Source: Ulota crispa (lineage: Eukaryota; Streptophyta; Bryopsida; Orthotrichales; Orthotrichaceae). From it: 64,000 nucleotides of DNA. The notes below the pieces were generated by a model. It saw nothing but the letters and a program-made list of their open reading frames with translations, made no database searches and was not told the origin of the DNA. Shown here in pieces: positions 3,680 through 63,463 of this stretch. The stretch spans positions 1,798,001-1,862,000 of the forward strand of contig OY987247.1 in assembly GCA_963920765.1 (NCBI GenBank). The letters run 5' to 3'. Position numbers and translations under genes: made by a program. Numbering within the stretch: position 1 is the first letter of the stretch; each line of letters begins with the position of its first letter.

Positions 3680-3916
3680 TTAATCATTAAAGGACGGAGC
3701 TACTATAATACATAGTATATATTGTATAATTGGCATTTGCTACCAACAAAAAGTTTTAATTTGGGATTTTGACTACCTCACTAGAACAACATTGATTTCT
3801 ATTCTAACTTCTTTGTTGCTCTCAAAAGTAATAAAGGTGCGGATGCACTCCAAATACAAAAAAAATACATTGTATTGTATTGGCCGCAAAGGGCTGCATT
3901 GTCATTTAGGGGTTAA
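3680..3916 (+). mobile_element. TTAA-flanked MITE, family A copy 1
   Basis: The element is bounded by TTAA on both sides and ends in ATTTAGGGGTTAA. Its whole length aligns by eye with the segments at 37051-37284 and 48762-48995 (inverted). Shared internal blocks include TTGCTACCAA, TTCTTTGTTG and ATTGTATTGG. It has no coding capacity. The TTAA target and CCC-type ends are those of piggyBac-like elements; the class assignment is inference. Confidence 0.6.
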
Positions 3917-6347
3917 GATCTTGTTGTTTGTGTGTTGAGAAGGTTCTTAAGACAAAATTTGGTACACTTATGGAATTGGGCTCCAAATTGTTGTTTTAGG
4001 GGAAAGTTGTGGTATTAGTGATTCCGTGACCCTCTATTGTTATCATTCATTTACGCATTTTCAACTTGGTTAGAATTGATGAAAGAAGTAGCAAGGCATA
4101 TGAAAACACAACATGAGTGATGTTGAAGAAAGCTTGGTCACATTTTGTGACAAAATTAAAGTGAATTATGATTGGTGGAAGAGTGCGGTTATTTTGAAAC
4201 CATCAATGTACTCATAAACAATGAGAATCTTCGCCTATGAACAATTAAATCCGTCATCTATATAGTCAAATTTGAGTTGCCTTACTAAAAGATCACATCC
4301 AAATACAATGTCTTCACATATAGAATGTTTTATCTGGCACTATGTTGAATTCAATTTTTGAAAGGGAAGCTAAGAACCAATAAATCTATCATTGTTCTAG
4401 AGTTTACTCAATAACTTTAGCCATCCCTCAACTTTTACTACTGTAAGATGTAGAAGGATGCAAATCCCAACACCACATGAGTATACAATAAAGATGCAAT
4501 TATGTTGATTCTCTACAAAGGATAAAACACATTTAACTGATTAAAATAAGTAGGTCTTTTTTGCATTTGATTTTGTGTCTATTTCATGAAAATTGTGTTA
4601 TTAATATTATGTGATTAGTCATTACAACCCAACCACAAACATACTCCACACCTCTGTTTGCTCAAAGATGAGTAAAGATGTGAATTCTACATGTAGGGTT
4701 TCTATTAACAACTTTTCCTATTGTTATCACCTTTTCATACTTTAGGTATTACCTTTTCATACTTTCATACTTTAGGATATTGTAGTGTCTAGGAAAATTT
4801 TGAGCTTCTTTCATACAAATCCTACATTTCTCATTTTCAACCATTTCCTTCAGTACATGCATTGAATATTGCCTGTATCCGTATACTCTAATTAGACATT
4901 TCCCACAAATCTAGCCCGGTTTTTGTGTGGTTCACTCAAATTTCAACCCGGTTTTTTGACATTTCACTTGAATGACTTTCTATACATTTTCGGAACTCCT
5001 CGCTCGTTGTTCTAGGATATCATGACTCGTTACCAATAAATATCCACTAATGATCATGATTGCATGCGAAAGGGCCTAATTGCATATCCCTTTGAATCCA
5101 CGGAGAAATGTTGAGGAATGGAATTTTGGTATTGTCCAAAAGAGTTCTACGAGGTCAAAGTCGATTCAAATTTCAGTACAATAGTTGCAATATCCAAGCG
5201 TTGAAAGTTCTGTAAGGAGTATCTGACTAATAAACTTAGATTTTATGAGGGCAGGCTGTCTGGAGGAGATCCTACCATATAATGTTGGACCATTGGGTTC
5301 TCTTGCGGTCAAGCGTATAAAAAAAACTTAAGCATCTTTGGTAATACCATAAAAAAGGGGCTCCACTACGTTGGGGGACTCCATCGTCCTCAGTCCTCAC
5401 AACTCCACACACAAGCTGGTCACACAGGGGCAGGGCAGCAGCAGTCATTAAGACTCCTGCGTACAGCACCCCATCCCAGGACTCTCCCACACCTTTGACA
5501 TGGACTCAGTGCTTGCAGCAGTTAGCTCAGCCAATGTGCTCGCCACAAAAGCTAGGCAAAGGTTTGAAAAATCAAAAGTAGCCTCTGTTACCAATGATGT
5601 AGCAAAAAGGGAGAAATGCACGCCGTCCTGAGTAAGTAACTACCCCATGTAAATGTCAGTTAGGTACTCTGGGAAAAACATAATACATGTAAGGTAACCT
5701 TACCCATACCCGAGCATTTAAGGGTTTAGGGTACTTCAAGGTCTCCGAATATTCAAGAAAAAAATCCATAGGATTGGACTTTCAACAAGCTATTTTGGAG
5801 CGTAATTTTTGTGGAAAAAAGTATTGTAAATTATTTTATATTAAAAGGCAAAGTTGCAGCTCATAGGGTTCTTATTAGCAACTCTAAACTACCTCTGAAG
5901 CTGCTTGGATGTGATTATTTGATGGTCCCAATCTCAATCCTCCCAAATTAATTCCTAAGTTGACATGTGACAAGATTTGCTTATGTAAGTGACATTCACT
6001 GCTCCACTTTGAGTTCAAGAGTGTGTGAAGAACACCCAAAATGTAGAGTGCAGCATTGGGAACCGCTCAGGTATGGGGTAAGTTACCTTAGATGAAATGC
6101 CTTTTGCTTAGGGGATTCTGGTCGTCGGACTCACTAGTGGTGGTTTAATACTGGAAATGCATGAAATAAGGGGTAAGCAATAATGATATACACCATTTTT
6201 GTAGAATAAAAAGAGGGGCCAAAGAACATAAGAGAAAAAGGAAAAATTGCAAAAATAATCCCAAATGTAATTTCCACACCCTACTCTCCTCTTACTAATA
6301 ACATTGAACACCATTCTTAATAAATTGAGGAAATATCCACGTTTTGG
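3917..6347. other. AT-rich intergenic DNA with a dispersed repeat
   Basis: No gene is recognised. The segment at about 4795-5015 matches segments at about 23230-23450 and 43150-43355, with shared blocks such as TGCATTGAATATTGCCTGTA-like sequence, TTAGACATTTCCCA and GACATTTCA. A GC-richer patch at 5250-5520 carries a 72-codon minus-strand frame with no recognisable domain. Confidence 0.4.
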
Positions 6348-6483
6348 CACTACAAGAAAACACAGTGTTCAAGTGTCCAAATTGACACATTCAAATTGAC
6401 TCATCCAAATTGACAAAAAAAATTGATTGACACATCCTAATTGACAAAAAAAACTTCCAAATTGACATTGTTCCTTTGTAATG
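6348..6483. mobile_element. Miniature CACTA element, 136 bp
   Basis: It starts with CACTACAAGAAAA, the canonical plant CACTA (En/Spm) terminus, and ends with TTCCTTTGTAATG, an imperfect complement of that end. The direct repeat TGG flanks it on both sides, matching the 3-bp duplication of the superfamily. The interior consists almost entirely of subterminal repeats of the type CCAAATTGACA. It cannot encode a transposase and is a non-autonomous derivative. A second member lies at 32699-32859. Confidence 0.75.
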
Positions 6484-6660
6484 TGGTAATCAAGTTCAGA
6501 AAGAATGTAAATTGTTGTATAATCTCCAAAGGTAGCCAAACTTGGAAGATGCCTTTTCATTTTGTTGAATTGTAAAATTGCAAACAACAATTATATTGGA
6601 ACTTGTTAGTGCACGAAAACTTTCCCGAACTAATACTTCATGAAGTAATATCTACCCTTA

Positions 6661-6782
6661 GGTTATGTTCACACTTGGTGTTAGGAGGGGTATTAGCAAT
6701 ATGAATGTATTCTAAGGGTGTGTCCAAATGCATCTAATTATCCATAACTACTACCACTCTTAACACCAAGTATGAACATACC
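6661..6782. mobile_element. Small hairpin element, about 122 bp
   Basis: The left arm GGTTATGTTCACACTTGGTG is mirrored by the right end, whose reverse complement is GGTATGTTCATACTTGGTGT. The arms are about 40 bp with a short loop. It resembles a minimal MITE. The superfamily is not decided, because the flanks (TTA left, AGA right) do not give a clean duplication. Confidence 0.5.
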
Positions 6783-6904
6783 AGATGTCGATCCCAACAT
6801 GACCCACCCCTCCCCACCTCACTCTGTGAACTAGTAACCTTCATAAATTAATATGAACTACTAGGTTCCAAGCATATTAGTTAGTTTAGATAGGTTTTAC
6901 TGTA

Positions 6905-7230
6905 AGGTAAGAGGCTCGAACTCCATTTGGGCAGTAATACCGCTCACCTCCCCAAATGAACTCCACATGTACATGCCTTATTCATAGCCTTTCAAAAATG
7001 TACAGAGAGCATACATTTGAGGAAGTGATCCATTTTAGAGCCCTATGACCTTTCCACTTCAAAATTTCATAGCTAATTCCACATTGCTTTGAAAAATACA
7101 AAATAACTCAAGTTAGATGCCAGTTCCTCTTGTCTTTCAAGAAAAATTTACTAAAAAATATATCGAGAAGTTCCACCTCCCCAAAATTCAGTTTCAGCTC
7201 TTAGATGGTCGGTTTACGGGCCTCTTACCT
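6905..7230 (+). mobile_element. TA-flanked MITE, family R copy 1
   Basis: This is one of four homologous elements of about 320 bp (also 43372-43687, 48016-48339 and 49216-49541). The best-preserved copies have ends reading AGGTAGTGTGCTCATAAAC, with GTCCA following, and their inverse. Flanking TA dinucleotides fit a Tc1/mariner-type target. This copy has diverged ends (AGGTAAGAGGCTCGAA and its partner CCTCTTACCT) but keeps the conserved interior, for example CCAAAATTCAGTTTCAG. Confidence 0.6.
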
Positions 7231-7480
7231 GAATTCCGTTTTTAGAGCTTGGAATTTTCCTGATTTACTGGATATGGTAGTTGCTGCTAAATATATCTTC
7301 AAGTTTAACGCTTTCATATTTGCATTGTTTTGTACTAGAAATCAAGGTTTTAGTTTGATGTTTTCTAAATTTCGCCGCGTTTTATAAACATTGGTGAAGA
7401 GGAGGAGATGCAATAACTGAACTGATGATATGTCCTCGTTGGCCATGGACCTGGGTGCTGTAGTATCTTATGATTGAGAT

Positions 7481-7596
7481 GGGTGGTGCTTAACCCTAAT
7501 TAAGGAGTTGGGTGGTGCTTAACTCTAATTAAGGAGTTGGGTGGTGCTTAACTCTAATTAAGGAGTTGGGTGGTGCTTAACTCTAATTAAGGAGTT
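7481..7596. repeat. Tandem repeat, four 29-bp units
   Basis: Four consecutive 29-bp units begin GGGTGGTGCTTAACYCTAAT and end TAAGGAGTT. The units differ only by one C/T change in the first copy. The start of a fifth unit (GGGTT) follows. Near-identity of the units indicates recent expansion. No open frame spans the array. Confidence 0.9.
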
Positions 7597-7881
7597 GGGT
7601 TTTGTGATGTTGCCTTGGAAATGGGTTTGTTGGCATAAGAACAAGAGAATTATGTGAGGTTGGGCTTCAGGTACGTGCCCTTATGAGTAAGTGTTGACGC
7701 CCGGGTTCTGGTGGGTATTGGGTCAACTAGGAGGAATGTGATGGACATGGCAAACTCCGGACAGAGGTAAGAAAGAAATATTAATGAAAATTACTCGAAG
7801 TGTTTGGGAACAATACAATTTTTTTGCTTTTGGCATGTTGTTATATGGTTTTGCAAGAAAAAAGGGTTACAAGCTACATGT

Positions 7882-7961
7882 TTAACCCTTAAATGTTAAA
7901 TGGCTTGCAATATACTCACAAACGGAGACATGACAGGTTACGTCTAACGTCTAAGGATTAA
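7882..7961. mobile_element. Short TTAA-flanked element, 80 bp
   Basis: It starts TTAACCCTTAAATGTT and ends AACGTCTAAGGATTAA, giving approximate inverted repeats bounded by TTAA. Its right TTAA (7958-7961) is also the left boundary of the next, larger element, so the two abut with a single shared target sequence. Confidence 0.5.
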
Positions 7962-8893
7962 CTCCTAAAGGGCCATTGTCCCTTCGGGGGACAAATGAGA
8001 TTTTGGGCATGTACCTATGACTAAACTACTTTGTGTGATTTTTTGAAACTTTAATTGAAGATGTGGAATTCAAAAATTTGCGTGGGCATCTAATTTTTTC
8101 TTCATTTCGACAATTATTGAAGAAATTATGCATGAATTTCTGACTAACAAGGGAGAGCATGCAGCCAAATTTTTTTTTCTTAAACATTTTTTCAAAATAA
8201 AAATCTGAAATTGGTTCTTTAGATTTATACATATGTGGGGAGCCTTGAATCATTCAATTTTGATTATGAGTGAATTTTTGTAGTTTGTGGGCAAGTACGG
8301 GACTCCCATACCTCCATTCCTTTTGCCTTTGGTGCTTCACTTTTTTGTGCTCTTTGTGATTTGTTTTTTGACTTCTCCTTTTTCCCAATTGTAGTAAACT
8401 AAGATTCCTTGGTTTTAACCATTTGGATCAAAGTAATTCATATTTTTGGATTCTACACAAATCCTCCAATTTTGCCTAGTGTATATACAAAGTTGATGGC
8501 CTTACGACATTGCAAGATTTTACAAAGTGTGATTCGCATCTCCAATTCATTTGAGAATTATCCCATGCTTACCTTACTTGGTCTTCTACATGGAAAAAAT
8601 AAATCTCAACTTTGCATAGAGCAATTTCTTTGATTTAGGGGCAATCAAAGGCTTTTGCAATTTTTGGGCAGTAGGAAAAAGACCTTTTTTTTTCACTTCA
8701 TGTCAATATCTCACTCCTCTACATCTAGAATGAGCTGATTTTTTTTCCACGAGTACCTCCCATAGTCTAGGGCAAGATTTTACGGTTGGATTTCCAAAAA
8801 TAATTTTTTTTCCTACCTTTATACTCATTCCCCCAAAAGCAGCAATTTTCAGTAACTTTCATTGAAAAAATGGCTTGGTCCTTTAGGGGTTAA
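7958..8893 (+). mobile_element. TTAA-flanked element, family B copy 1 (936 bp)
   Basis: The left end is TTAACTCCTAAAGGGCCATT; the reverse complement of the right end is TTAACCCCTAAAGGACCAAG. The interior matches the segment at 13598-14643 in the opposite orientation, for example the block around CCTCCCATAGTCTAGGGCAA. The short open frames inside it show no transposase motifs. It is a non-autonomous element with piggyBac-like target and ends. Confidence 0.6.
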
Positions 8894-8922
8894 GTAATAA
8901 CATGTTGCATGTACGAGGAATG

Positions 8923-12548: not shown

Positions 12549-12739
12549 AGCCATCATTATTTGCTTTGACTTGATAAAACTTAGTACATCAATAATTCAG
12601 GTTGGGTACAACAGAAAAAAACTAGTGTTTCCTTTTTATCAATGAGCATATAGTTTATGGTGCAGTTCTTTTAGCTATTAAAGCATTAATTTTCTTTAAC
12701 CCCGAAAGGCTCAAGCCTCTTTTTTTTTGTAAAAGTCAC

Positions 12740-13601
12740 TTAACCCCTAAAGGAGTTGATCCATTTTGAAATGGTCAAAATTCATGTTTAAGCTCAATTT
12801 TGTCTTTTAAAGTGTGTTCAAACAACAATTTTGTATTTCTATTGCTTGGAACTATGAATGATATATCACTAGAGGAAATTTCAATTTGTTTCATGAAAAT
12901 TTGTAATCCTTATAAAAAAATGAACATAAATGAACATAAATAAGTTAAAATAGCAAAAAAACCAAATTACTTGAATTTATTTTCAAGAGGTACAAGCAGC
13001 ATTAAAGATTAGTGTGACAAAATTCCAATTGGTTATTTTATTTTTTACACCCAAATCAGCCACAACAAAGAATTCAAAATCAAATTTGACTCTCACACCA
13101 AATTTATCCTTATCTTTAATTAAGTTATAAAAATTTGATATTTTTTCTAGAAGACACATTCAATTTCTATTTACATTATTTTTTTCAAATTTTTTAAGGA
13201 AATTTTGAATTACTGTGATTTTTTAAAGCTAAATGTGGAAATAAAATCATATCAACTATAATATATATTTTAAAAAATCTGTAATTTCTACCATAAATGA
13301 ATGGTAGAATAAGAAACATAGTTTTGTAGTTTAAATTTTAAAACGCATTTAAAAAGTAGAAAATTTGAATGAAAAACACACCATATTGTGTTATTTGGAT
13401 TCTAACACTTAGAGCTTTCAATGACAGTAACTTTTTCATTTTTTGACATTTTCCAAAAAAAATAAAAGGAACAAAAAGAAAACTTGTCAAGCTTTAGTTT
13501 CTTAGTTTGAACCACTCACCAAAAATTGATATTTTGAAAGTTACAATTAGGGTTGACCAAGGCGCATTCACTTTTTGGATGCACAAACCTTTAAGGGTTA
13601 A
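12740..13601. mobile_element. TTAA-type element D (about 862 bp)
   Basis: The left end is TTAACCCCTAAAGGAGTTGA. The right end, reverse-complemented, is TTAACCCTTAAAGGTTTGTG, and TCCA occurs at a comparable position in both. A further solitary end (TTAACCCCGAAAGG) lies just upstream at 12696. The element abuts the next one at a shared TTAA (13598-13601). No coding capacity is recognised. Confidence 0.5.
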
Positions 13602-14643
13602 AATTGCCATTTGTAGAGGAATGAGTTGAAAAGTAGGATTTTTTTGTTTTTGGAAATCCAACCATAGGGTGTTGCCCTAAACTATGGGAGGTACTTATGG
13701 GCAAAAATCAGCTCATTTCATAAGGCAAAGAGTGAGATACTTTTATTTGAAGTAAAGAACAAAAGTTTATTTTCTTCCTACCCAAAAATTTCAGAAGCCT
13801 TTGACTGCTCTTATTTCAAAAATATTGCTCTACTCAAAGTTGAGGTTTATTTTATCCATGTAAAAGACCAAGTTAGGTATGTGTGGGAGAATTTCCAAAT
13901 GAATTGAAAGTGTACACTACCTTACCAAAAAGATTGTCACCTCTCATAATATTTCACTTTTTTCAAAATCATTTTTGGCAATAAAAATATTCAGTACATT
14001 ACTTTTTTTATTTTAACAAGTTGCTTATTGGGAAGCAATAATGTTTTTGGCAGGCCACTATACAACATACTTCAAAAACCTTTCAATTCTGAAAGGTCAT
14101 GAAATTTGCAAGTGCACTAAGCAAAATTGGAGGCTCTATGTAAAATTCAAAAATCTAAATTACTCTCATTCAAATGGTGAAAACCAAGGAATCTTAGCTT
14201 ACTACAACTTGAGAAGAAAAAAAACAAAAAAGCAACACATAAACCACTCAAAAAATTAAAGTACCAAATTTTACAATGGGCAAAAGGATTGGAGGCTTGG
14301 GAGTCCACCAAGACGGGCTCCCTCCACTCCACTCCCCTTTGCCCAAGTGTCAACAACTTGTGCTTGTAAGAGTTGACCCTTTTTGGAATCAACACCCACT
14401 TACAAAGGAGAAGCCCTACCTATGGTGCCCCTTCTCCCATAGTTTCAGAAAATTCTTGATAACTTCTTTGTCAAATGCTGGAATGAAAAAAAAAAAAAAA
14501 AAAAAAAAAGTCCATGTGGGTTTTTCAGTTCCTTACCCTCACAAAAAGTTTCAAAATATCACTCATATTAGTTTAGCTATAGGTACTAACATGTTCAAAA
14601 TCCATCTGTCCCCTTGGGGGACACTTAGGCCTTTAGGGATTAA
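13598..14643 (-). mobile_element. TTAA-flanked element, family B copy 2 (inverted)
   Basis: This segment is an inverted relative of 7958-8893. Matching landmarks include GGAAATCCAACC, the block TATGGGAGGTACT, AAAGTTGAGGTTTATTTTA and the right end CCTTTAGGGATTAA. The end next to element D has lost about 50 bp compared with copy 1. A run of 24 A residues (14486-14509) lies inside. Its 145-codon frame at 14276-14713 runs across the A tract and out of the element, and is not credible as a gene. Confidence 0.55.
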
Positions 14644-17750: not shown

Positions 17751-18431
17751 TTAACCCTTAAATGTCGAAGTAGCCATTTTGTGGCTTTTGGATGACTAAA
17801 AAGTGCTTTGACAGTGGAATAACATTGTTTTTCATCCAAGATTTCATTGGATATGAAGAATGCAATGTAGAGCATGTAGATAGATAGTTTGCATGCACAA
17901 TGTTTACAAAAGGGTCCCACTTGCCAATTGAGTAGTAAAAATGCACCACCATATAGTGTATTTTGAATTTTGAGGATTTTTTTACCAAAACTCAATATGG
18001 GTTATTAAAATCATGTGTTTTTAGTTTGAGCATAACTAGCATTAGAAAGTTTACCAAATCTAATTTCTCCTTGTACTTTAAGATTTTGAACAAATTTAAG
18101 TTTTGAAATTGTTATTACTGTCACAAGTTGAGTACCTATTACCATGGAGTAGTTACTTTTTCTAATTTTACCGACATGGGAAGAAAAATTCCAACATGAT
18201 GATCTTCATCATGATTCAAATCCATGATTAAAACATTGGCATATTTGAATACATTTTATAATTAATATGAATTTCTTTAGCATTTTCTTTACACATGTAA
18301 TATGCACATACCTTCTTTTACTAAAATTATAATATTGAATTTTGATGTTGATTATTGCCAAAATAACTTCTAGAAGATGATTGCAATTCCATAGAAAATC
18401 CTTGGTTGTAGGCCCATCTTTTAAGGGTTAA
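17751..18431. mobile_element. TTAA-flanked element E (681 bp)
   Basis: The left end is TTAACCCTTAAATGTCGAAG. The reverse complement of the right end is TTAACCCTTAAAAGATGGGC. TTAA is intact on both sides. The left end resembles that of the element at 31399 (CAACCCCTAAATGCCGAAG). Overlapping minus-strand frames of 76 and 101 codons show no known domain. Confidence 0.55.
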
Positions 18432-21841: not shown

Positions 21842-21877
21842 ATACTGAATATATATATGTATGTATGTGTGTATATA

Positions 21878-23692: not shown

Positions 23693-24035
23693 TTCATCCC
23701 TCATAGTTCCTCATCTTTATTCAATATAGTCATCCTAGTTCATTCAATGAAACATGACCGCGTACATCAAGTAGTAAGTTAGTGTGTTTATGAGGCAAAC
23801 AGTCACTGTTGCTTGGTTTTGGTGGCAGCATTGTTGACTTGTGCATTGAAATCCAGCAACTCCTCTAGAGCCCATGTTTGATGTGTTCGTCAAGACCCTT
23901 CCATGGTTTTATTGGGCCTGGGACTGAAAACTCAGTATTGATGAGCAGTTACATTCAGTCTCAGAAAAACAGAATGCATCAAATGACAAGCAGTGCACTC
24001 ACCCTACATGCACTCCTACCGTGGTAATGGCATAA

Positions 24036-24200
24036 GCTTACCCAATCTTTGAAACGACACTGAGGGGGGTGGAGTTAGGAGAAATACTGAGTTTACCCAA
24101 TCTTTGAAACGACACTGAGGGGGGTGGAGTTAGGAGAAATACTGAGCTTACCCAATCTTTGAAACGACACTAAGGGTGTGGAGTTAGGAGAAATATTGAA
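24036..24200. repeat. Tandem repeat, three 55-bp units
   Basis: Three units of exactly 55 bp begin TTACCCAATCTTTGAAACGA and run through GGTGGAGTTAGGAGAAATA. The first two are almost identical and the third is slightly diverged. The array expands part of the dispersed repeat whose other copies follow at 24700-25560. Confidence 0.9.
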
Positions 24201-31398: not shown

Positions 31399-32064
31399 TC
31401 AACCCCTAAATGCCGAAGAGGACGCTTTTCGTCCCCTGTATATCGTAGGATGGAAAAAAAGTCATTTTTCTTCTGAATGTTTTTAAAAAGTGGTCATAGG
31501 GCTGAGGTTAGATGGCATGCTGTTAAGTAGGGCCAGGGTAGAAAATTCCAGCTTTTTCACCACACATAAAATGTGAGCGTTTGGATATTTACTATCATGA
31601 GATTGAATTTGGGAATTTTGAATTTAGATTTGGATTTAAAGACCCTAGTTTAGTATGAAACTCCAAAGAAGTACATCATTGACAATACCAAAATAGGGGG
31701 CAAATTGTATTTTTTCTTAATTTGTAAAAACGATGGAATTTTGCCTCTCCAATCTCACCATTTGGCATGTCATCTAACCCCAACCCTAATCATAGATACA
31801 TGGTCCATCATGGAAGGCAAAAAACAACTTGATTGAATGCACTTAAAGTTTTAGGTAACCCAATTATGAGAAGATTCATAGACACAGTGTTAGGTCTCAT
31901 CAGTCCCATGTTGCCCATTTTGTAATTTTTAGTTAGGCAACATGCACTATTGACTTTTGCAGCTTTTGGAAATAATATCATAATGGGTGGGCACTTGCCA
32001 CACCAGCGTGTAAAGAATTGTTGAGCTATTGTAAAGAGATATTTGTGGTAGCTTTAGGGGTTAA
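31399..32064. mobile_element. TTAA-type element F (about 666 bp)
   Basis: The left end is TCAACCCCTAAATGCCGAAG (TTAA decayed to TCAA) and the right end is GCTTTAGGGGTTAA. The interior at about 31595-31700 resembles the arms of the Mutator-type hairpins (GAATTTGGGAATTTTGAA and TTTGGATTTAAAGACC), so it may hold a fragment of that family. It is the first mobile element downstream of the gene. Confidence 0.45.
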
Positions 32065-33269: not shown

Positions 33270-34183
33270 TTAACCCTTTAAGGACCACACAACCATATTT
33301 TGGTCGTTGGGGGTAGTTTTTGGCATGTAGGTTGAAATTGCTTAATAAATTGGAATTTGGTTTTGAAAAACGCATGTCATCATAAGAATTTTGCATCCAT
33401 CTAAAAAAATAATGATGCAATTGGGTATGTGAGTTGATAAATAATGGTGTTTATACAGCATGGTTTCAAAATACGTATCCATTTTTTGTCAAAGATGGAT
33501 CAAAGCAACAACACAATACATCAAGTGTGCAAGAAGAATGTCAAATTTCAATTGCACAATTCTAAAAATTTCAAATTGCTTAAGAAATATGCTTGTATTG
33601 TTTTCCTATACGGTAGTAGTATAATTGTAGTATTTGAAGATCTACTAAAATGGTGTTGTCATTTTGGCTTTAAACTTTGTCATCCAACATTTAGGGCCTA
33701 TTCTTGATTGTCTTCACCAATTGGATTTTCTAGAGTAATTATCAAATTTCTTGTAGAACCATTTTAGGGTAGCAAAGAAAGTGGGTTTTTTGACCCTTTT
33801 TGTCCACTTAGCTACACCTTGTGATTGCTATTTTTGTCTATTTTGTCTGAAACGAGTCTTATTGTAAAGGTGGGAAATCGTGCTTTCTAGAAATGCAAGG
33901 CTCTTCTCAATCCAAGCTTGCATGAAGCGTTGACATTCAAAACCACACAAGCATGAAATACTATAGATTTTCCGCATACGGCTCACTCAATCATCATAAT
34001 GTTTCACCTTCAATGGTAGATCTAGCTGAAATTTTGGTGCTTTACAGTAAACAAGGTGTGTTTCCCATTTGTACAGTTGGATTATTGAAAATGGGTCCAT
34101 ATTTGAGTCAATTGCACATCTAAGCTTACATCCCTTGTTTTTAGTGGATTTTGTGAAAACGGGTGTGGTCCTTAAGGGGTTAA
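33270..34183. mobile_element. TTAA-flanked element G (914 bp)
   Basis: The left end TTAACCCTTTAAGGACCACA continues CAACC. The right end, reverse-complemented, is TTAACCCCTTAAGGACCACA and continues CCC. The inverted repeats are about 24 bp with one or two differences, and TTAA is intact on both sides, making this one of the best-preserved members. Internal frames of 71-87 codons have no transposase motifs. Confidence 0.7.
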
Positions 34184-38041: not shown

Positions 38042-38744
38042 TGCCTTCAGTATGCGGCTAGCTTTGGGAACTCTAACACACTCATGTAAACCTATTGCTT
38101 TTTGTCAAGAGAGAAATCCTCCTCTTCCTAGCTAAAAGGGAGTTGGTTGTTTGGATTGGCATCAACTCTTCAAGCTTTGCAAGTTTGTTTCAAGTGTTGG
38201 CCATGATTGCTCTTGTGCCAAGGCCATGAGTTTCATGTTTGGCTTTGGGCTCAAATTTCTCCAAATACATTTGGACCCACATCCACTATATAGTAATTGT
38301 CCCATATTTTGGTTGGACTAAGGACACCCTTATATTGCACATATTAGTAGGAAAACTTCAAACCAATACAATTGTGATGACTGTTACTTAAACTTGGAAA
38401 GTACTTGTAGATTGTTGTTAATGGAGTAGAATTGCAGCAAGGTGGAGGTGCTAGAGGTGCTAAAATTGCCATTGAAAAGGACTGATTTTTTTAAATTTGA
38501 TTCATTTCAAGAGTTCCTAACCTTGACATACTTTGCAAGATAATTTCCTTAGAAGATTTAAGGATAAAGTAGGAAATTATGCTTTGTTCATATTTTTTGG
38601 ACTTTTGTAAAATTGGTCATAGAGATGTTTTTATTTATTTATTGTGGATGCCATTAATATCAAGTATTTCTGTATTAGAAGGTGGATTTAGAAACGAGAT
38701 ATGTTTAAGAATGTCTACCTTCTAATCTTGACTCTTAACCCCTC

Positions 38745-38814
38745 AATGCCCCAACGGCAAGAACTGCGCCCCATTTCAATGTTATTTTCAATAACCAAGG
38801 CATTGAGGGGTTAA
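38745..38814. mobile_element. Minimal TTAA-flanked element, 70 bp
   Basis: It starts TTAACCCCTCAATGCC and ends with the exact complement GGCATTGAGGGGTTAA. It is therefore a perfect 16-bp inverted repeat (including TTAA) around a 38-bp centre. This is the smallest clear member of the TTAA group. Confidence 0.6.
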
Positions 38815-48761: not shown

Positions 48762-48995
48762 TTAACCCCTAAACGTCTGAGAGTGCCGATGCAACCAATA
48801 CAATACGGGGTATATTTCTTGTATTTGGAATGGATCCACACCTTTACTACATTTGAGACCAACAAAGAAGTTGGAATATAAATAAACATGGTTCTAGCGA
48901 GCTATTTGAGATCCCAAGTTAAAATTTCTTATTGGTAGCAAATGACAATTATAGGTCAGCATATATACTATGCCCTATGGACGTTTAATGGTTAA
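48762..48995 (-). mobile_element. TTAA-flanked MITE, family A copy 3 (inverted)
   Basis: TTAACCCCTAAACGTCTGAG forms one end and GGACGTTTAATGGTTAA the other, with TTAA intact on both sides. The interior is the reverse complement of the copies at 3680 and 37051. The three copies are nearly equal in length (234-237 bp), so they derive from one defined element. Confidence 0.7.
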
Positions 48996-51028: not shown

Positions 51029-51119
51029 TTAACCCTTAAGCGCTAGGGGTCACCGTGGACACACACCCTCCATGTATGAGCGGGGACGGTTTTTGTCCCC
51101 GTGGTCCTTTAGGGGTTAA
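51029..51119. mobile_element. Short TTAA-flanked element, 91 bp
   Basis: It starts TTAACCCTTAAGCGCTAGGG and ends GTCCTTTAGGGGTTAA, with TTAA on both sides. Inside, CGGGGACGGTTTTTGTCCCCG forms a GC-rich hairpin, unusual in this AT-rich region. Confidence 0.55.
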
Positions 51120-52170
51120 GACATGCTTACAACTCAACCCCTAAGTGTTTTGTTAAGAAATTTTAACATGATTCCAATATGAAACCTTGAGCACATTCTC
51201 TAAAGTTTTGAAAAGTTGAACAAGTAACCACATAATTCAAACCGGTCCTTCTATTCCCAGCTACAAACCAAATGTTTAAAACCAATTTGATTTCAAATCC
51301 AAGTAAATTTACAAAATCCCCACTGTTGAGAATCTCATATTTGTCAATTTGGGCAGCAGTTCACAATATGGATTTTGGATTTTGACTTGATATTTTTCCA
51401 AAAAAATGATTCACCTATTGGCTGATCCCATGAGATTGTGTTTAGCTTTATTTGATAGAAAAAAAACTCCACAAATGGAAAAAAAACTCAAAAAGATATG
51501 GATGTTCAAAGTAACTAGATCCCACAAGCTCCTTACTTTAGAACTACAAATACCTTGTCCAATATAAGATAAGAAAAAGCACACATTGCCAAAATTCTCC
51601 CTTGTACAAGAGGGGTACATCAAGCTTACCAATTACCTATTTCAACCATTTAGTTTTTTTGGTGAAACATGGAGTATAATTGGAATCTTTTTGTTAAATT
51701 TTTTATCATTGCATCCTTATGCAATACCAAGCAAGTGCACAAAATTTCAATTCCTAAAAACCAAAACTCCATTTTTGGTGAATTGTTTTGTAAGAAATTC
51801 ATGGTTTTACATGATAATTTATTGAAAAAATTTGGTGAGGAATTTTTGAGATTTGATTTCACGGATATGTAGGAAACATCCATATGCACATCTTCCATGC
51901 TAAAAACAACCCCTGAAGTAAAAAAAACTTTATCTACAATAGATTCAATGAAACTTGTGATAGGCCCAAATTTTGTAAAATATATATTTTTCTATGTCAA
52001 TCAAATTTTGTTGTTCGACTCAAATATTGTAACTAAGTTTGTATCTCTAAGCATGATGTTTTGTTTACTTGATGAAAAGCTAGTTAAAAAATAAATATGT
52101 ATATTTTACAAAATTTGGGCCTATCACAAGTTTCATTGATTCTTTTGTAGATAAAGTTTTTGTTACTTAA

Positions 52171-52574
52171 CCCTTTAACGAGTGGTCGACCAATTCTTGG
52201 TCGATTTTGACTCTTTTCAATTTGTAGAGAGAGCATGCCAAGGAATTTGATGACGTGACAAAGGGGACGGGTCTGGGGAATTGGAAAGTGAAGAGTTTAG
52301 GACAATAATCATGCCAATCTGAGGTGGCATGTGGCTAAAGGGTTGAAAAAACTAAAAGAGTACTGGCTGAAAATACACCAATAAATGCAAAGAAATGGCC
52401 ATAATAACTAAAGAGTGAGCATAATTCATGATGCATAACACTAAATGTTGCAATATACTTCCATCTGTACGGTCAGATCTGTAATAGACATCTATATTCA
52501 ATAATCCTAAAATGTCCCCCAAATGGAAATACAAAGGATTGCCCACCCCCAAATCAACCATGGTCGTTAAAGGG
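52171..52574. mobile_element. TTAA-flanked element J nested in K (404 bp)
   Basis: The ends are CCCTTTAACGAGTGGTCGAC and, reverse-complemented from the right, CCCTTTAACGACCATGGTTG. TTAA lies at 52167-52170 and again at 52575-52578. The opposite arm of K carries the equivalent uninterrupted site, ACTTCAGGGG against ACTTAAGGGG here, showing that J was added precisely with duplication of TTAA. Non-coding. Confidence 0.8.
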
Positions 52575-52742
52575 TTAAGGGGTTTTTTTTAGCATGGAAG
52601 ATGTGCGTATGGATGTTTCCTACATATCCATGGATTCAAATCTCAAAAATTCATCACCAAATTTTTTCAATAAATTATCATGTAAAACCATGAATTTCTT
52701 ACAAAACATTTCACCAAAAATGGAGTTTTGGTTTTTTGGTAG

Positions 52743-53459
52743 TTGCAAGAAACACGTCACAGTTTTGTGTCAAAACCCTTCAAAAAAGTAGTATTATGTA
52801 ATACCTATGAGCTTTTGAAATAATTTTAAAAAAATAAAAATAAAATATGGACAATTTGTAAAGCCCTTAAAATAGCATACTCATGAAAATTCAGACCTAG
52901 AAAAAAATTATTCTAAAAGTTATGCACAAAACAAAATCACCAACAAAAATCCAATTACTTTCTTGTTTTTTAGAAAATAGTAAAAATTCTCAAAAAGTTA
53001 AAAAAAAAAAAAAAAAAAAAGCCATTTTGGTCCATTGTGAAGAGCATGACTAATGCAAATCATTTTTCAAGAATGTTTGTTCCCAAACCCTAATGCTTGT
53101 CCAATGGATGCCCACTTTGAGGGAAAGTGGAGGGCATATAATTTACAAACTCCTCAGCAAATCCATGTAATATTCAATGATGAACAACTCCCCAAGTTTG
53201 TGACATCAAATTCCTTTTTTTCGCCTCAATGCAGTACTAAAAACCCACAAAATAGCCAAAGTAGACATATTATTGGAATCCATTTAAAACTAGCAAATGA
53301 TTTTTAAAAAAACCCAAAAAAACACAATAGGTCAATAATTTCAATGTGAACCTTCCTCTAAATTTTCACATGAAGAGAAGTTAGTAAGCAAAAGATAAAC
53401 CCCTAAAACCACATACCATACAGCAAGGGGACAGAAAGCAGGACAAGTATTTCTTGCAA
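52743..53459. mobile_element. Second insertion nested in K (about 717 bp), class unknown
   Basis: The inverted ends TTGCAAGAAACAC and GTATTTCTTGCAA enclose AT-rich DNA containing a run of 21 A residues (53000-53020). It splits the right arm of K within the site corresponding to GGTTTTTAGGAATT in the left arm. No clean target duplication is evident. An 84-codon frame inside has no known domain. Confidence 0.5.
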
Positions 53460-54870
53460 TCACCCTTTTAGGAATTGAAATTTTGTGCACTTGCTTGGTA
53501 TTGCATAAGGATGCAATGATAAAAAATTTAACAAAAAGATTCCAATTATACTCCATGTTTCACCAAAAAAATTGAATGGTTGAAATAGGCAATTGGTAAG
53601 CTTGATGTATCCTGCCTCTACAATACAAGACATGGAAGCACCCATCCCATCTGCTCTCTAAGCAGCTTCCTTTGATTGCCCAAGGACATTCTTCTCCTAA
53701 TTGTTGAAAAAACAAAAAAAAATCCATATTCCTTGTAGAATTTAGAGCAAAGCAGGCACTTCAAACTAACAACAAGCCAATCATCTTTTTTGTTGGACTA
53801 GATACTCCATTTGCACTTGAGTGGTAGACCAAAATTGGAGCTCAAAATGCCTCTTTTGTCTACCTTCACAGCTCCAAGCACCCCCTTTGGCCATGTTGGG
53901 CTTTTTAGACGCTTAGGGGTTAAGCAATTTTCCTAGTTAATATGCAAACTGGGTAACTCTAATTTCTTACTACAAATAATTAGAAATATTGAAGAACTGT
54001 TCCTTAAATAGTGTTGAGTTAGGGCCTAGCTAAAAATAAGCAAAATAGTATCTTTGCAATTTCCACCTTTGGCGCTTGCTATGCTACGCATTCACTATTA
54101 GAATTTTGTTAGGATTTTCACATGTTAGATAGAATGTGATATTAAAAAATTTGGGATGTGATATTACAGAGGCCAACATGATATTAGTAGTATGATAAGA
54201 ACTATGGGTTGGCCCATTCCCCTACACAAATTCATGCAATCTATTTTATAAAGCTTCATGTGTCAATTAGTCACGCAATATAATTCTTTATGAATATTAG
54301 AAGTTCAATATTCTCTATTATAAAGCATTGGGTGTAAGGTATTGAGTGCATGTTAGTTACCAAAAATTTGAAATTTAGAAAGGGGGAGAGAGAAAAGATA
54401 GGGAAAGGGAGGGCAAAAAAATCATAGCAAAGCACGTACTAGGCATACTTGTATATATGAATTACTTATTCCCAATCGTTTTGTGTCTCAAAGAAGAGAT
54501 GCTACGCGTCTTATAAAAAATATCCCATAGTATGAAATGTTAATGGATTCCAAATTATCTAGTCTACTATACGTTTTTTTAATTTTCCTTTACCCTATTA
54601 TTGTGCATACTTATTGCAATGAATATCTAACTCTTGCAAAATGAAAGTTTTCATAACACAATAGCACATTAATTGTCCATGCATGCATACGGAAATAGTG
54701 AGAGTGAAACTAGTGTTGCTTGTTGGTTTCTATTTAGATTTTTTTTTTTTTTTTTGTCTTTGGTTCTTTACGACCTCTAAACGTATTCATTGTTGAACAA
54801 TATTATGCTAAAATTGATATGATTCGGACTGAAACTTTCAGAGTAAATGCAGGATATGACTTTCTTGCTG

Positions 54871-55583: not shown

Positions 55584-55677
55584 TATAAGCAAGAAGGTTT
55601 TAGAATAAAAATTACAAAAACAGATTTGAATTATCATTTGCCCAGCAAAAGTTATGAGCATTCAAAGTTGGCAACTA

Positions 55678-57888: not shown

Positions 57889-57916
57889 TTAACCCTTGAA
57901 CGTCAAAGGTTTTTCA
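57889..57916 (+). mobile_element. Solitary TTAA-element terminus
   Basis: TTAACCCTTGAACGTCAAAG matches the left end of the 63252 element (TTAACCCCTGAACGTCTC). No partner end is visible downstream, so the copy is probably truncated. Confidence 0.35.
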
Positions 57917-60858
57917 AAAAATCAAAATCATGCTCAGGTTCACAAGACTTCCATTAAATAGAGATTCGGGCAAAACAAACACGACTTCAAAAAGGGGAAA
58001 TTATTCCAATAACTTACCTTGCTTCCATACCAACAGTCATTGTCACAAGACAGAAGTTCAGTTTATGTGCAACGAATACACCTAACCTCAGGTTTCCGTG
58101 ACAGAAATTTCCAGGTCCTGGATGCTAAAAAACTAATAATAATGTATAGCAAAAGAAAGAATCAGAAATATTGGTTATGAAATGTACCCTTCCAACAATA
58201 AGAATTGATGAATCCTGCAGAACTAAAGAGTGTTTTGAGGCGCTAGTATGTAAAACATGCATAATTTTTTTACAGCCTCGTCACTCTAAAAATGATAAAT
58301 CTGTGGTGTTTGCCTGTTGTCTGTACCTACTATTTTTGGCTGAAAAAATAATAATCGTCCATGGCTGCAAATAAGAGTGGCATCCTTCCATGGGTCTCGT
58401 TTTGCATCTTGTGACATGAGCAATGTGCCTATCACCTAATACAACAAAACAACCAAAAATTGTACATATTAGTCCGGTTCTTCAATTGAATGCAGTTTAT
58501 TCAAAGATAAATGCACTCACAGAGGTTGCATTATGTAAGATATGTAATACAAAAATCACTAGGGAACTAATTGAATTGGAGCCGGTTACTAGCAGTAATT
58601 CATATATTCATGCACTTGGTTTGACTTATTCGAAAGTGGTGTCAGCATGACTTGGTTAAAAGACCATGTCTGCAGATATTTGACAATGAAAAATGGTGTT
58701 GTATTTGGTACTGATCTACAACCTTCTGCTTTGAATAATTCCACAAGGAATTCATTCATAACAATATAGAACTTCTTTTTCTTTTTTTGTTGGATTTGGT
58801 TCTTGTACTCAAAGTTATCTCCATAGCGCTACCAAAGATCACACGCTAACATACGTTAAAGTGCTTTAAGTGACAAACGGCATCCTCAACTTTTTTCGGA
58901 GCAATATCAAAATCATAGCCTTACGATAATGTCAATCACCTTCTTATTGCAAGTGGTCTAGTGAGCTACAATATGTGAATTCCAAGACACTCAGCATGTC
59001 ACGTTACTGAGGTTGGTTGCACTAACTAAGAAAACAACTCCCATGACAGGGGAAGCAAAAGGATTGATAGATTATAAAGTACCAGCTCATGAAAATTGCA
59101 AAAAAACCAGCACATTTTTATATTCTTCAACAGACCTTAAGCTTAAAAACAGTTAACTTCCTCTGAGTCCCCTGCTGAATTCTTTGAGTTTTTCTGACTT
59201 ATTAGGTTGAGTGTATCTAGGAGTGTGCAGTGTCTAGGCATGATTTTCACAAAGACCAACCGTTAGATGTGAAAACAATATCCACTCTTGAATGCAGATC
59301 TCATAGCCTTAGGTGTCTAGAATGCACATGATTATATGGATTTTTAAACATCTCCTGTATAAAGCAGCAGGTGCTTGGCAGTCACCAAAAATTTAAAGTT
59401 TGGGGGAGGGAGAGGAAAAGATAAGGAAAGGGAGGGTGAAAAGTCACCAGAAATTAAAAGAGATAGAGCAAAGCGCAAGCAAGGCATACTAGTTACATTA
59501 ATGTTTAGGATTGTGAGCGTCAAAAAGGTGGTGATCTAGAGTCCTATTAAGTGGTGACATTCCTTGTTATCACATTTAGGTGCACATTCCTTAGGTTGGG
59601 TAAGAGAATATAGGATGTGATGTTATCACTTCACCTATATTTTAGACACCAATGTCTAAAAAATAAAATCTAGGACACGAATGTTTTCTAGACTTCAAAA
59701 CGTCCCCTTCAACTATTAAAAGATTTATTTGTAATTTTTGGTACAAAACTTCTTAAATCCAATTGGTTTGATAAAACTCAAAAGAATATGAGAATGATGT
59801 TCAGAAATCAATTTTAGATGAAAAGCTAAGGTAGGGTATCCACAGAACCAATTACAGATGAAAAAATAGGTAGTGATATCAAAAAGATCTAGGGACAAAT
59901 CAACACATTTTGAGGTTTTGACCTCTTTATTAAAGAATCTCCAACACCATCTACAACTATGAGAAAGAAAAATGTAACATGACCTTAAAAATATTAGAGT
60001 TGAGAAAGATATCGATTTATATAACCTTGTATTAAGGTCAAGGGTTATTATACAAGGCCACAAGTTACATGGGAAAGAATTAACCTCCTCAATTTTGCAA
60101 ATTCGAAATGCACACTTGTTCCTCGAGGGAGTTGCAAAGTCAACTTACCCCATACAAACTTCTAAACAAGCATGTTGAGGGAGGGGTCTAAATGTACATA
60201 TTTACTACGGTAAAGTGTACATCTTAATTTTGTCTACTGAACAATTATGGCTTCCCAAACACTTTGTGGAAGCTAAAATTTGAATTCTTCGAACCGTGTA
60301 GCGAAACAACTGGGGTGTTTGTGTGCAAACATTCAGTTATAATTATTATTATCATCATTTTTACTTTCTATTGTAAGTCATTTGCATTGCCAACCTTGTG
60401 CAATACTAAACCCCACATTTTAGAAAACAATATTAGTCCTAATGTTTGGTCCCAAGACGTACTTGAAGACTGTTCTTAAGGTTCTTAAGGTGGACTTTCA
60501 TGGTGATTGTTCTTAAGGTGAACTTTCATGGTGACCCCACAATCAGAAAATGCAAACACAAAAAACATTACACTGCAAACTTGTTTATCAAATCTACATT
60601 TTGCAGCTCCAAACTAGCATGAAAGTTCACCCTTGTTATAGAAACAGTTTTGACACTTGTGAGGAACCTAGAAGGCAATGGCATGTTCCAAACGGGGGCT
60701 CCACACTTGAGACCAAGCCACAAAAGCCAAGATCTCATCGGTCAAGCTAGGGCCGGTTTCAAGTGCTCAAAATCAGTGTTCAGGGAGATTCTAAGCATTT
60801 CCAACCAATTTTTGGAATGCTTTCACTAAATATTGCATTTATCTTTGTGCCACGATTA
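57917..60858. other. AT-rich intergenic DNA, no gene recognised
   Basis: It holds a purine-rich repeat copy at 59350-59500, an FF-like fragment at about 59680-59870, and a short tandem duplication at 60471-60536 built on TTCTTAAGGTGAACTTTCAT. Open frames of 60-112 codons have no recognisable domain. Confidence 0.4.
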
Positions 60859-61191
60859 AGCCCGGTTCAGACTAGCGAACGCACGAAAATATCTCAAACC
60901 TCATTGGTTGAAATATCACTTTTGTCCATTGAAGTGTTCACACTTAGGGTTTGTCCAATATTTCAATTTGTCATGGCACCAACCAATATAGACACGTTAG
61001 CTGACAAGATAGTGAAGTTTTGGGGCTTACTATGAGGGTGGTTCCAAATTTATCTAGTAGATGAACACTCCTACTTTGCAGCAACTTTCTTCTCCAACAC
61101 TCTTGAATGATGTGGAAGTGCTTTGGAGGATGAAAGACTAGACAAAATGCTACTTTTTTTGTTTTGTCCAATAGCTAGTTTGAACCGTGCC
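60859..61191 (+). mobile_element. PIF/Harbinger-like MITE W, copy 1
   Basis: The left end AGCCCGGTTCAGACTAGC and the right end GCTAGTTTGAACCGTGCC are imperfect complements; TTA lies at both sides. The interior is homologous to the neighbouring copy (ACCAACCAATATAG, CAAGATAGTGAAGTTTTGG and CACTCTTGAATGA). Confidence 0.65.
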
Positions 61192-61194
61192 TTA

Positions 61195-61499
61195 GGGCCC
61201 AATTTTGATTAGCAACCGTTTGATAATTTCTTAAACATGATTGGTTGAAATTTGGCTTTTCTCCACTGCTAGGTTTAGACTGCGGGTTTGTCCGATACTT
61301 TTACATCCATCTTCACCAACCAATATAGCCATGTCATGTCAGCGGCCAAGACAGTGAAATTTTGGAGCTTGCTCCAAGGGTGGCAACAAACTTGTCCGAC
61401 ACTGGCACACTCTTGAATGACACACTATTACACGGAAAAATTTCTTGCGGCCCAAGAACCGTTTTGCCACTTCGTCCGTCTGGTAGTCTGAACCGGGCC
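61195..61499 (+). mobile_element. PIF/Harbinger-like MITE W, copy 2
   Basis: It starts GGGCCCAATTTTGATTAGC and ends GGTAGTCTGAACCGGGCC. TTA lies at 61192-61194 and 61500-61502. The left TTA is also the right boundary of copy 1, so the two copies are joined head to tail at one TTA. Confidence 0.7.
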
Positions 61500-61732
61500 T
61501 TACACGTTATAAAAAAAACTAACCGGATTTTATTCAATAGATTCAAACTTTGACCGGTTTTTTTGCCATTCCATTCGGCTAACTTTCCTATTGTTTTTTT
61601 CGACTCCACCTCCTTGCTCAGAATTTGTGAAGTTTTTTAGCTTGGCCCAAGTAGAAAGCGGCAGAAAGCGGCACGAAGCAAGTTCAGGAGCAGCTCAGAA
61701 GGGAATTGGCTTAACTTACAGGAATGCGTGGG

Positions 61733-61879
61733 CTAAGCAACGCGGAGGAGCTCGATGTCCCCCTCGCGGAGCGCGTCCGCCACGATGACGGCCGTGTACA
61801 GGCAATTCGCGATCCACCGCATTAGCGGGCGACATACCGTGCCCGCTACCCAGACCAGAAAATCCCACCCGTGCTTCAT
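61733..61879 (-). CDS. Possible 48-aa small protein, hypothetical
   Basis: On the minus strand an ATG at 61879 opens a 48-codon frame ending in TAG at 61733. The translation begins MKHGWDFLVWVAG, has a hydrophobic central part (MRWIANCLYTAVIVADAL) and ends REGDIELLRVA, so a membrane-associated micropeptide is conceivable. A good splice donor (GTAAGT) lies about 15 bp after the stop, and short uORFs precede it. I do not recognise the family. It could equally be the start of a longer spliced gene read in another frame, or chance. Confidence 0.35.
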   Translation of the reverse strand: MKHGWDFLVWVAGTVCRPLMRWIANCLYTAVIVADALREGDIELLRVA

Positions 61880-62588
61880 CTCGCTCACTCTCCCCTGCCG
61901 CTGCCGCCACACCCGCGGCGCTTACGGCGCTTACACGACCTCTCGACACACTCCTTCGATCGCCCAGCCCCAGTCGATCCGTCACTACCTGCACCCCACT
62001 TCCGCCGTCGCCATGCCTCCCTTCACCGCACGCTCGCCAGTCCCAAATTTAGACCCCCAAGAATGCAATGGCCATGGCCGACGGTTCGCAGAGAAATGGA
62101 GAGAAAACAATGGAACAAACGCTCTGGCTATGGCGCGCAAGTGTGCACTCCACGGGACGAGATTAATCACGGCGCCAGAAAGCTCCACAAGCGCTCCTAC
62201 AAGCGAAAGCGACAAATTAAATGGATGCGTGTTGCAGAGGAAATTTTAACGAAAAGCGTGAAGAAATCGATACGGGAATTGGACGTCGAACGCGATTCCA
62301 GGAACTGGAATTGGCAATATAACTTATAAGCGCTTTTCTTTTTCCCATGATTGATGCCAATTCCAGGGTCCCACACACCCCACCAGAAACTCAAACCTCA
62401 AAATCCCTCCATTACGCACTCTTCGTTCCTTGCTTTCCGGCCTCCCTCCAGTTGCGTCTTTCGGTTGACTTCCCTTGTCCCCAGTCCCCACCAAACTTCT
62501 GCTAACGAACATTTAAACTGAAAGGGGATGAATCTAGATGGGATTCTGAGGAAAACTCAATCAAATCATCACCAAAGTGCACCGTAAT

Positions 62589-62607
62589 TTTAGGGTTTAG
62601 GGTTTAG
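62589..62607. promoter_or_regulatory. Telo-box-like TTTAGGG repeats
   Basis: The text TTTTAGGGTTTAGGGTTTAG holds more than two plant telomere-type units. Such telo-boxes are known in plant promoters, especially of translation and cell-cycle genes. Here it lies in the CpG-rich island, supporting promoter function. An interstitial telomeric remnant is the alternative. Confidence 0.5.
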
Positions 62608-63251
62608 TGTCCGTTCTGTGGCGGGACTTGGTCGCCATTGGTAGGCGAGCTTTGAGAGAGAGAGCGAGAGACTTGTCAAATGCATGGCTAAAGCTGTGGA
62701 AGAAGATAGTTTAATAAAATGCCTGAAAGATTAGCACACCGAGGTTTGTTTGTTTTATAAGTTAGAGTCCCAAGGCGGCTATAGGATTCTGTGTGTCGTT
62801 GCTAAGGCACGTGACGACTCGATCTATGGCGTTTGACGTGATCAGAAAAGTTCAAAGGGGAAAAAGTTTAGACTAAGTAGCTTTGGAAGAATGTGATCCC
62901 TTGATTACGTGAGGAGATTAGAGAATTTAGAGTAGAGCCTCCGTGCAATTGAATGATCGAGAGACGCACATGATTTCCGTTGTTTCTACGCGGAGGCGGC
63001 TACCGATTCCTGCAACAGTGGATTGTTGACGTGTTGCTTCCGAGGTCTACTGCGACGGCTGTGACCTGCAGCTTCATGGCGAACGTGCGTGATTGTACGT
63101 TTTGACAAACCTTTATAATGTCACATATTAGATATCACACACTATTTTTCCTCGACGACCCATATACCCGACCTCTTTAATGGCACCTTCTCAAATGTTA
63201 GGGCCACTTCACACTCTGGCCAAAGGTCAAGAGGTTGTGTGTTTTCACCAA

Positions 63252-63463
63252 TTAACCCCTGAACGTCTCAAACATCCTTTGTGGCTGTATGTATGGCCGT
63301 ATTTACAGACGTATTTGAGCTATTATGAGGGCTTTCCAAAAAAATTATGCATTCATCATCATACAACCTTTCAATATGTGTGGTTGTAACACTTGATTTT
63401 TATATTGGTTGCGATCGTATTTGGTACCATATCTCAAGAGGCCAAAGGACGTTTAAGGGTTAA
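63252..63463. mobile_element. TTAA-flanked element L (212 bp)
   Basis: The left end is TTAACCCCTGAACGTCTCAA. The reverse complement of the right end is TTAACCCTTAAACGTCCTTT. TTAA is intact on both sides. The ACGTC subterminal motif is shared with family A, but the interior differs. Short plus-strand frames overlap it and show no domain. Confidence 0.65.

Follow-up and report, generated by a model that had tools for sequence, protein, structure and literature searches.

The 64-kb window analyzed here (C6:1798001-1862000, part of a 274.8-Mb assembly in 157 contigs) carries a series of short segments that are bounded by inverted repeats and flanked by TTAA, which we describe as putative members of the piggyBac transposon superfamily, a group known chiefly from animals. 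Contigs of this assembly are labeled C1-C157, and L-numbers (e.g. L002, L040) denote loci cut from it. Copies were compared across the window, 200 kb of contig C1, C2 sequence and the cut-out L loci, and statements on relatives or second copies refer to this compared sequence, not to the whole genome.

The shared termini are far more frequent than expected by chance. With up to two mismatches, the 12-mer TTAACCCYTAAA matches the window 50 times, compared with 26.2 ± 5.1 in shuffled sequence, and none of 100 shuffles reaches 50. Alignment of the ends lengthens the motif to a 17-bp profile, TTAACCCYTAAANGWCC, which at the same tolerance has 29 matches in the window (0 in the reversed control) and 61 in the 200 kb of C1 (3 in the reversed control). 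Genome-wide, the exact 12-mer is found 39,919 times against 792 for its reverse, and the exact 17-mer TTAACCCYTAAANGNCC, i.e. TTAA followed by CCCYTAAANGNCC, 19,465 times against a single occurrence in the reversed control; the inverted-repeat termini reported in the initial annotation are thus real. Its expectation of TTAACCCYTAAA pairs throughout the genome is borne out for the ends, which abound, while pairs as such were looked at only in the compared sequence. There, adjacent +/- end pairs span 7.8% of the window and 4.6% of the C1 stretch, as a rough estimate in which not every pair was checked. The terminal inverted repeat measures 13 bp, CCCYTNNANGNCC. The main end class of the window, defined as exact CCCYTAAA (the CCCCTAAAGGACC class), and the other classes, CCCTTTAA, CCCTTGCA and CCCTTSAC, have the form CCC-Y-T-NN-A-N-S-N-CC, the length and the target in common. 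A passage of one source gives terminal inverted repeats of 12-19 bp starting with CC[C/T]T as a piggyBac hallmark (PMC2872659). The repeats described here fall within that length, and the main window class starts with CCCC or CCCT; its CCCC-starting ends depart from the published wording.

The initial annotation had listed sixteen starts in the window, thirteen of which we accept (Table 1), two of them at shifted positions (38745 to 38735 and 52171 to 52167). Two further segments, 7882-7961 and 51134-53923, are uncertain, and the former has one TTAA in common with its neighbor 7958-8893. The remaining one, 13598-14643, had been misread as a separate element: it is the right part of the host element 12696-14643, which is split by 12740-13601 and whose paralogs align straight through the insertion point. 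An end of the 11647 element at 13601 or 14643 was likewise ruled out, the L002 match (903 bp, 69.7%) placing it at ~12548.

Ten of the 16 parts have relatives, and the claim that the interiors are unrelated is correct only in part. It fails for the elements at 3680, 37051 and 48762, which form one ~235-bp family (78-80% over 166-236 bp, with more copies in C1), for 7958-8893 and the host 12696-14643, which have three stretches in common (73-77%), and for 33270-34183, whose 81-88% relatives extend over the full length in C1, C2 and L039 and up to the locus edge in L037 and L003. The elements at 12740, 17751, 38735 and 51029 are without a second copy. The flanks of 52167-52578 are part of an inverted repeat (51602-52739), with 93-95% copies within 1-2 kb.

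Table 1. Elements of the window (window positions) and transposase-bearing copies bounded at both ends (contig positions).
Position	Length	Strand	Status	Features
3680..3916	237 bp	.	accepted	~235-bp family; left end decayed, right end exact 12-mer; 8 other family matches
7882..7961	80 bp	.	uncertain	left end exact 12-mer, right end 2 mismatches; no second copy
7958..8893	936 bp	.	accepted	both ends; family members in window, C1 and L001
11647..12548	902 bp	.	accepted	right end TTGACCCATAAAGAACC; matches L002 2400-1500 (903 bp, 69.7%)
12696..14643		.	host element	7958 family; ends at 12696 and 14643; split by nested insertion
12740..13601	862 bp	.	accepted	nested in host 12696-14643; 8 paralogous empty sites; no second copy
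17751..18431	681 bp	.	accepted	both ends exact 12-mers; no second copy
31399..32064	666 bp	.	accepted	both ends; interior partly matched in C1 and C2
33270..34183	914 bp	.	accepted	ends CCCTTTAAGGACC and CCCCTTAAGGACC; relatives in C1, C2, L039, L037 and L003
37051..37284	234 bp	.	accepted	78% over full length to 48995-48762; same family
38735..38814	80 bp	.	accepted	matched CCCCTCAATGCC ends; no second copy
48762..48995	234 bp	.	accepted	two C1 copies, 83-85% identical, full length
51029..51119	91 bp	.	accepted	left end 1 mismatch, right end exact 12-mer; no second copy
51134..53923		.	uncertain	possible larger element around 52167-52578; ends TCAACCCCTAAG and TTAACCCCTAAG, left weak; inverted-repeat region
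52167..52578	412 bp	.	accepted	non-autonomous; TTAA CCCTTTAACGAG...GGTCGTTAAAGGG TTAA; 4 paralogous empty sites
63252..63463	212 bp	.	accepted	both ends; full-length relatives C1 98252-98484 and L005
C1:1176510-1184004	7495 bp			bounded at both ends by CCCTTGCAYGWCC; transposase inside
C2:15046195-15051296	5102 bp			bounded at both ends by CCCTTSACCGCC; transposase inside
C8:19568194-19573849	5656 bp			ends CCCATTAAGGATC and CCCTTTAAGGACC; right target TTGA; transposase inside

Transposase genes of the piggyBac type are present in the same genome. A profile search with PF13843 (DDE_Tnp_1_7) returned at least 120 matches at ~116 loci, with a best E value of 1.3e-73 and all listed matches above the cut-off; the 116 were scored among 528 first-look candidates. 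None was found in 14 control genomes, which is a weak control because those named are bacteria and archaea. Many of the copies contain internal stops. Pairwise identity among the transposases is 28-72% in alignments of at least 250 residues and up to 77% in shorter ones. Thirteen loci were read in detail. At six of them a TTAACCC-type end lies 1.1-2.0 kb downstream on the expected side, and three of these six are bounded at both ends (Table 1); the C4 copy has a decayed left end, and the C5 and L029 copies show a right end only. Our first idea, that the PF13843 loci are without matching ends, was dropped, since the coding elements exceed the 1.5-kb flanks.

The encoded proteins also resemble known piggyBac transposases in sequence. 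Pfam assigns DDE_Tnp_1_7 to all six frames tested (2.5e-63 to 5.4e-8), and two frames match solved transposases, piggyBac 6x67 (4.1e-20) and piggyBat 9c0f (3.6e-18). For the C4 copy, aspartates are found opposite D268 and D346 of piggyBac, as counted by hand. In the C8 copy, all three acidic motifs align to what we take to be the catalytic positions of piggyBat, consistent with the three catalytic aspartates of the superfamily. A cysteine-rich motif, CxxC...CxxC...C...C, follows the DDE domain by 182-208 nt at seven of the 13 loci, compared with none in the antisense control; at the six loci where it is missing, decay or frameshift is possible.

Rare ends were further compared with the 120 listed transposase matches. 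The set of 19 exact CCCTTGCA ends and that of 13 right-end 24-mers each added one correctly placed and oriented locus (C9:1316677 with C9:1317368-1318120, and C4:2140470 with C4:2142848-2143741, respectively). Another of the CCCTTGCA ends, at C1:20181030, is 1.7 kb away from a transposase match but on the side opposite to that expected. From the 28 CCCTTSACCGCC ends, no new locus was gained among the same matches. Two side observations concern these genes. L038 (G000:C2:34594948-34595949) has an uninterrupted DDE_Tnp_1_7 domain and the cysteine-rich motif, with no convincing ends in 9 kb (a weak candidate at 8263), and could represent either an ancient copy or a domesticated gene. In addition, oppositely oriented transposase matches of equal or near-equal score are paired 15-110 kb apart (G000:C2:36765124-36766008 / C2:36779670-36780554; C10:676128-677234 / C10:785346-786452; C7:18203169-18204302 / C7:18223004-18224137), which suggests inverted segmental duplications or assembly artefacts.

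One window element can be connected directly to a coding copy. The left 215 bp of 52167-52578 correspond to bp 1-215 of the 5656-bp C8 element contained in L040 (68.5%, E 8e-17), and its right 120 bp, colinear with the left match, to bp 5536-5656 (70%, E 6e-6); the right end also aligns to the C4 and C5 elements. Since its two sides thus match, in the same order, the two ends of a copy that carries the transposase, 52167-52578 derives from a piggyBac element by internal deletion. None of the remaining window elements gave a convincing match to the five coding elements compared, and their tie to piggyBac is, by sequence, one of end form and target rather than interior similarity.

The target is a strict 4-bp TTAA, as the initial annotation had favored over TA. 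Genome-wide, 860 ends deviate from the otherwise exact motif only at the outer T, 858 only at the inner T and 541 only at the inner A, compared with 19,465 intact ends; the outer T is therefore kept, as had been claimed for the window, and is as constrained as the core. The flanks of 168 candidate pairs were also joined and searched for paralogous empty sites. Junction matches were obtained for seven pairs, two of which were dropped as mispaired ends (C1big 85184-87898, 1 row; L001 1501-2717, 4 rows). The remaining five elements have 18 paralogous empty sites, so the expectation of empty sites with a TTAA duplication is matched in part: five read exactly TTAA, and 13 deviate from it by one base, two bases or a gap. 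Those of 52167-52578 read TTAA three times and TTCA once, two of the four being arms of one inverted repeat, and both sites of C1 159034-159922 read TTAA. The two of C1 143567-144489 read TAAA and TGAA, the two of L008 1501-1742 read TTGA, and the variants TGAA, TAAA, TCAA, TAAC and T-AA are found at 12740-13601. Since TTAA is its own reverse complement, empty sites alone do not separate a TA from a TTAA duplication.

Two back-to-back elements on one common TTAA were counted at 573 places genome-wide, compared with none in the reversed control. A crude random-site estimate from TTAA density gives ~228, ~2.5-fold fewer than observed. Examples lie at L040 7347-7350, C1:1097597-1097600, C1:1186538-1186541 and C1:1194558-1194561.

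The subterminal sequence shows a further feature. Perfect stems of 6 bp or more enclosing a loop of 3-9 bases, centered at bp 25 ± 2 of the element, occur in 8 of 72 end families (background mean 1.0, maximum 5), and stems of at least 5 bp in 12 families (3.6, maximum 10) and 31 of 125 ends (6.6, maximum 18). The palindromes were first noticed by eye, and the piggyBac repeat was considered before the first count; this interval was fixed after the peak had been seen and the position given in PMC7351741 had been read. The palindrome sequences differ from family to family, and most end families are without a perfect palindrome near bp 25. A general excess of hairpins near the ends was considered and rejected: positions 13-55 beat shuffled sequence (p 3e-5) but not the neighboring stretch 58-100 (p 0.19). 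As hairpin strength is no higher than in that stretch, only the position-specific peak is claimed. In Trichoplusia ni piggyBac, according to a passage of PMC7351741, a dimer of the cysteine-rich domain binds a palindromic repeat at bp 17-33 with its center at 25, and the position found here agrees with that repeat.

Taken together, we are confident that the segments are non-autonomous piggyBac superfamily members, comprising miniature inverted-repeat transposable elements (MITEs) and deletion derivatives, in the nuclear genome of a moss-like plant. With little reservation, we also regard each segment as a cut-and-paste transposon with the 13-bp inverted ends CCCYTNNANGNCC, inserted at TTAA. 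The piggyBac reading of the initial annotation is upheld by DDE_Tnp_1_7 genes lying inside elements with the same kind of ends, and by 52167-52578, which derives from such an element. Presumably, a DDD piggyBac transposase made in trans from the coding copies bound these ends, cut the elements out via hairpin intermediates carrying TTAA overhangs and reinserted them at other TTAA sites. The palindromes near bp 25 may serve its C-terminal cysteine-rich domain as binding sites, in the way known for T. ni piggyBac. The extent to which the copies have diverged (28-77% identity among transposases; window families mostly 70-88%) suggests that the insertions are mostly old.

Several observations weigh against this assignment. 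Neighboring ends in the opposite, -/+, arrangement are also found within 3.5 kb (window, 6 vs 9; C1, 12 vs 15), which makes single end pairs without a second copy less certain. The C8 (TTGACCC) and C5 (TTAATCC) copies are each one base off TTAACCC, the L029 end has two mismatches and is possibly due to chance (background ~2 per 10 kb), and the C4 copy reads Asn at the expected third catalytic Asp. Seven of the 13 loci are without a convincing downstream end (L030-L033, L035 and L036 with 1.5-kb flanks, L038 with 4.4 kb), and TBLASTN of the transposases against the window gave no match. Thirteen of the 18 accepted empty sites are not exact TTAA, including all eight of 12740-13601. Finally, the transposase with matching ends predicted by the initial annotation is found for relatives with CCCTTNNA-type ends, but not between exact CCCYTAAA ends among the 13 loci read, six of which have 1.5-kb flanks.

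This last point leaves some room for a different source of the main class. Kolobok and Sola3 are other TTAA-target superfamilies, and one of them could move the CCCYTAAA class, piggyBac having made only the CCCTTTAA, CCCTTGCA and CCCTTSAC classes; in line with this, no transposase gene was found between exact CCCYTAAA ends in the compared sequence. We nevertheless consider it very unlikely, given that the classes have one form, CCC-Y-T-NN-A-N-S-N-CC, one length and one target, and that 33270-34183, with the ends CCCTTTAA and CCCCTTAA, is intermediate between them. The palindrome peak does not bear on this question, since it was measured on the classes pooled.

Less probable still is an origin of the CCCYTAAA elements from a TA-target family of Tc1/mariner type that strongly prefers TTAA, in which case A would be the first base of their true inner ends. 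The palindromic nature of TTAA makes filled and empty sites look alike for either duplication, which is compatible with such a family. The mariner-like alternative raised in the initial annotation has, however, lost its target-site argument: if the outer bases were free, non-T should outnumber T there, but outer and inner T are lost equally often (860 vs 858), which rules out a TA target. The same end form also bounds piggyBac genes, although mariner transposases were not searched for. Programmed-elimination or introner-like elements with chance TTAA ends, for which short conserved ends, many interiors and piggyBac-like proteins reminiscent of ciliate internal eliminated sequences might speak, have a negligible probability, as 10 of the 16 parts have relatives, five elements have paralogous empty sites, in coding relatives the transposase gene sits within the element, and a plastid contig, bearing rbcL and tRNA-Arg(CCG), belongs to the genome.

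Within the piggyBac interpretation, a broader model can tentatively be proposed, which we think may be right but would not expect to be. The piggyBac elements of mosses would then be an ancient and highly diverse community whose ends consist of two modules: a near-fixed 13-bp cleavage repeat common to all families and, adjoining it, a palindromic recognition site centered near bp 25, which each family would have reinvented in step with changes of its transposase's cysteine-rich domain. If true, this would explain how ends that number in the tens of thousands and have the same tip can belong to separate mobilization groups.

The nature of the host was deduced from organellar sequences. Contig C157 (112.5 kb) bears rbcL, tRNA-Arg(CCG) and a frame that presumably represents the start of accD, and is therefore considered to be plastid DNA. 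A plastid-type RNA polymerase alpha domain (rpoA) is located on nuclear contig C2, with two weak partial matches on C5, and was not found on C157, which may be incomplete. According to a passage of PMC5877570, moss plastomes typically lack rpoA, and two mosses have copies in the nucleus; the distribution seen here most likely points to a moss host. A second long rbcL match (G000:C97:118173-118940) lies inside a 964-codon open frame and is organellar or transferred plastid DNA. As for the rest of the window, short tandem arrays occur at 7476-7600 and 24035-24199; their units measure 29 bp and 55 bp and are 94-97% alike. Pfam returned no family for the seven examined of 17 stop-to-stop frames of at least 110 codons, and nothing was found by Rfam at gathering thresholds in the window and L009-L016.

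A 275-Mb genome with 19,465 exact 17-bp ends and ~116 scored loci with transposases of 28-77% identity would make piggyBac a major, long-lived component of a land-plant genome. It would provide a plant source of piggyBac transposases and ends, and a natural test of how end recognition diverges. For repeat annotation, a caution follows that TTAA MITEs of bryophytes may belong with piggyBac.

Among known systems, T. ni piggyBac (6x67, 6x68) is similar in its TTAA target, CCC-type ends, DDE_Tnp_1_7 domain with a C-terminal cysteine-rich motif and, as the passage of PMC7351741 indicates, a palindrome centered at about bp 25, which is found here in a minority of ends. It differs in length, 2472 bp in a passage of PMC10803768 compared with 5.1-7.5 kb for the three doubly bounded copies; in addition, the host here is a plant, the palindrome sequences are family-specific and the transposase is only distantly similar. 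piggyBat of Myotis lucifugus (9c0f) is matched by a transposase at 3.6e-18, but is described with simple 15-bp ends in a passage of PMC8086355. The coral elements AmiPB1-6 and the associated CMITEs, as far as covered by a passage of PMC2872659, likewise use TTAA and place MITEs alongside coding copies. The ends of AmiPB2, CCCTTTAACGCCC, and AmiPB5, CCCTTAGAGACCTA, have nearly the same letters as CCCTTTAACGACC at window position 52578 and CCCTTAGAGACCAC in L039, respectively. In the CMITEs the interior is more conserved than the ends, whereas here the ends are conserved, the interiors vary and the host is moss-like.

In plants, passages of PMC10140906 and PMC8086355 simply state the occurrence of piggyBac, and one of PMC12732532 calls it occasional, 'e.g., red algae'. 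Repeat tables contain piggyBac entries for C-fern (1230 copies) and Stipa (1 copy). No paper on a moss or bryophyte piggyBac transposase was recognized by title or abstract start among the open-access literature matches listed. Bryophyte proteins with a DDE_Tnp_1_7 domain appear in automatic annotations. PiggyBac is one of seven angiosperm MITE superfamilies listed in a passage of PMC10004981, which names no plant transposase, whereas here coding relatives with matching ends reside in the same genome. The superfamily itself is thus already known, and what sets this genome apart is the unusual abundance and depth of piggyBac in a land plant, together with its coding relatives.

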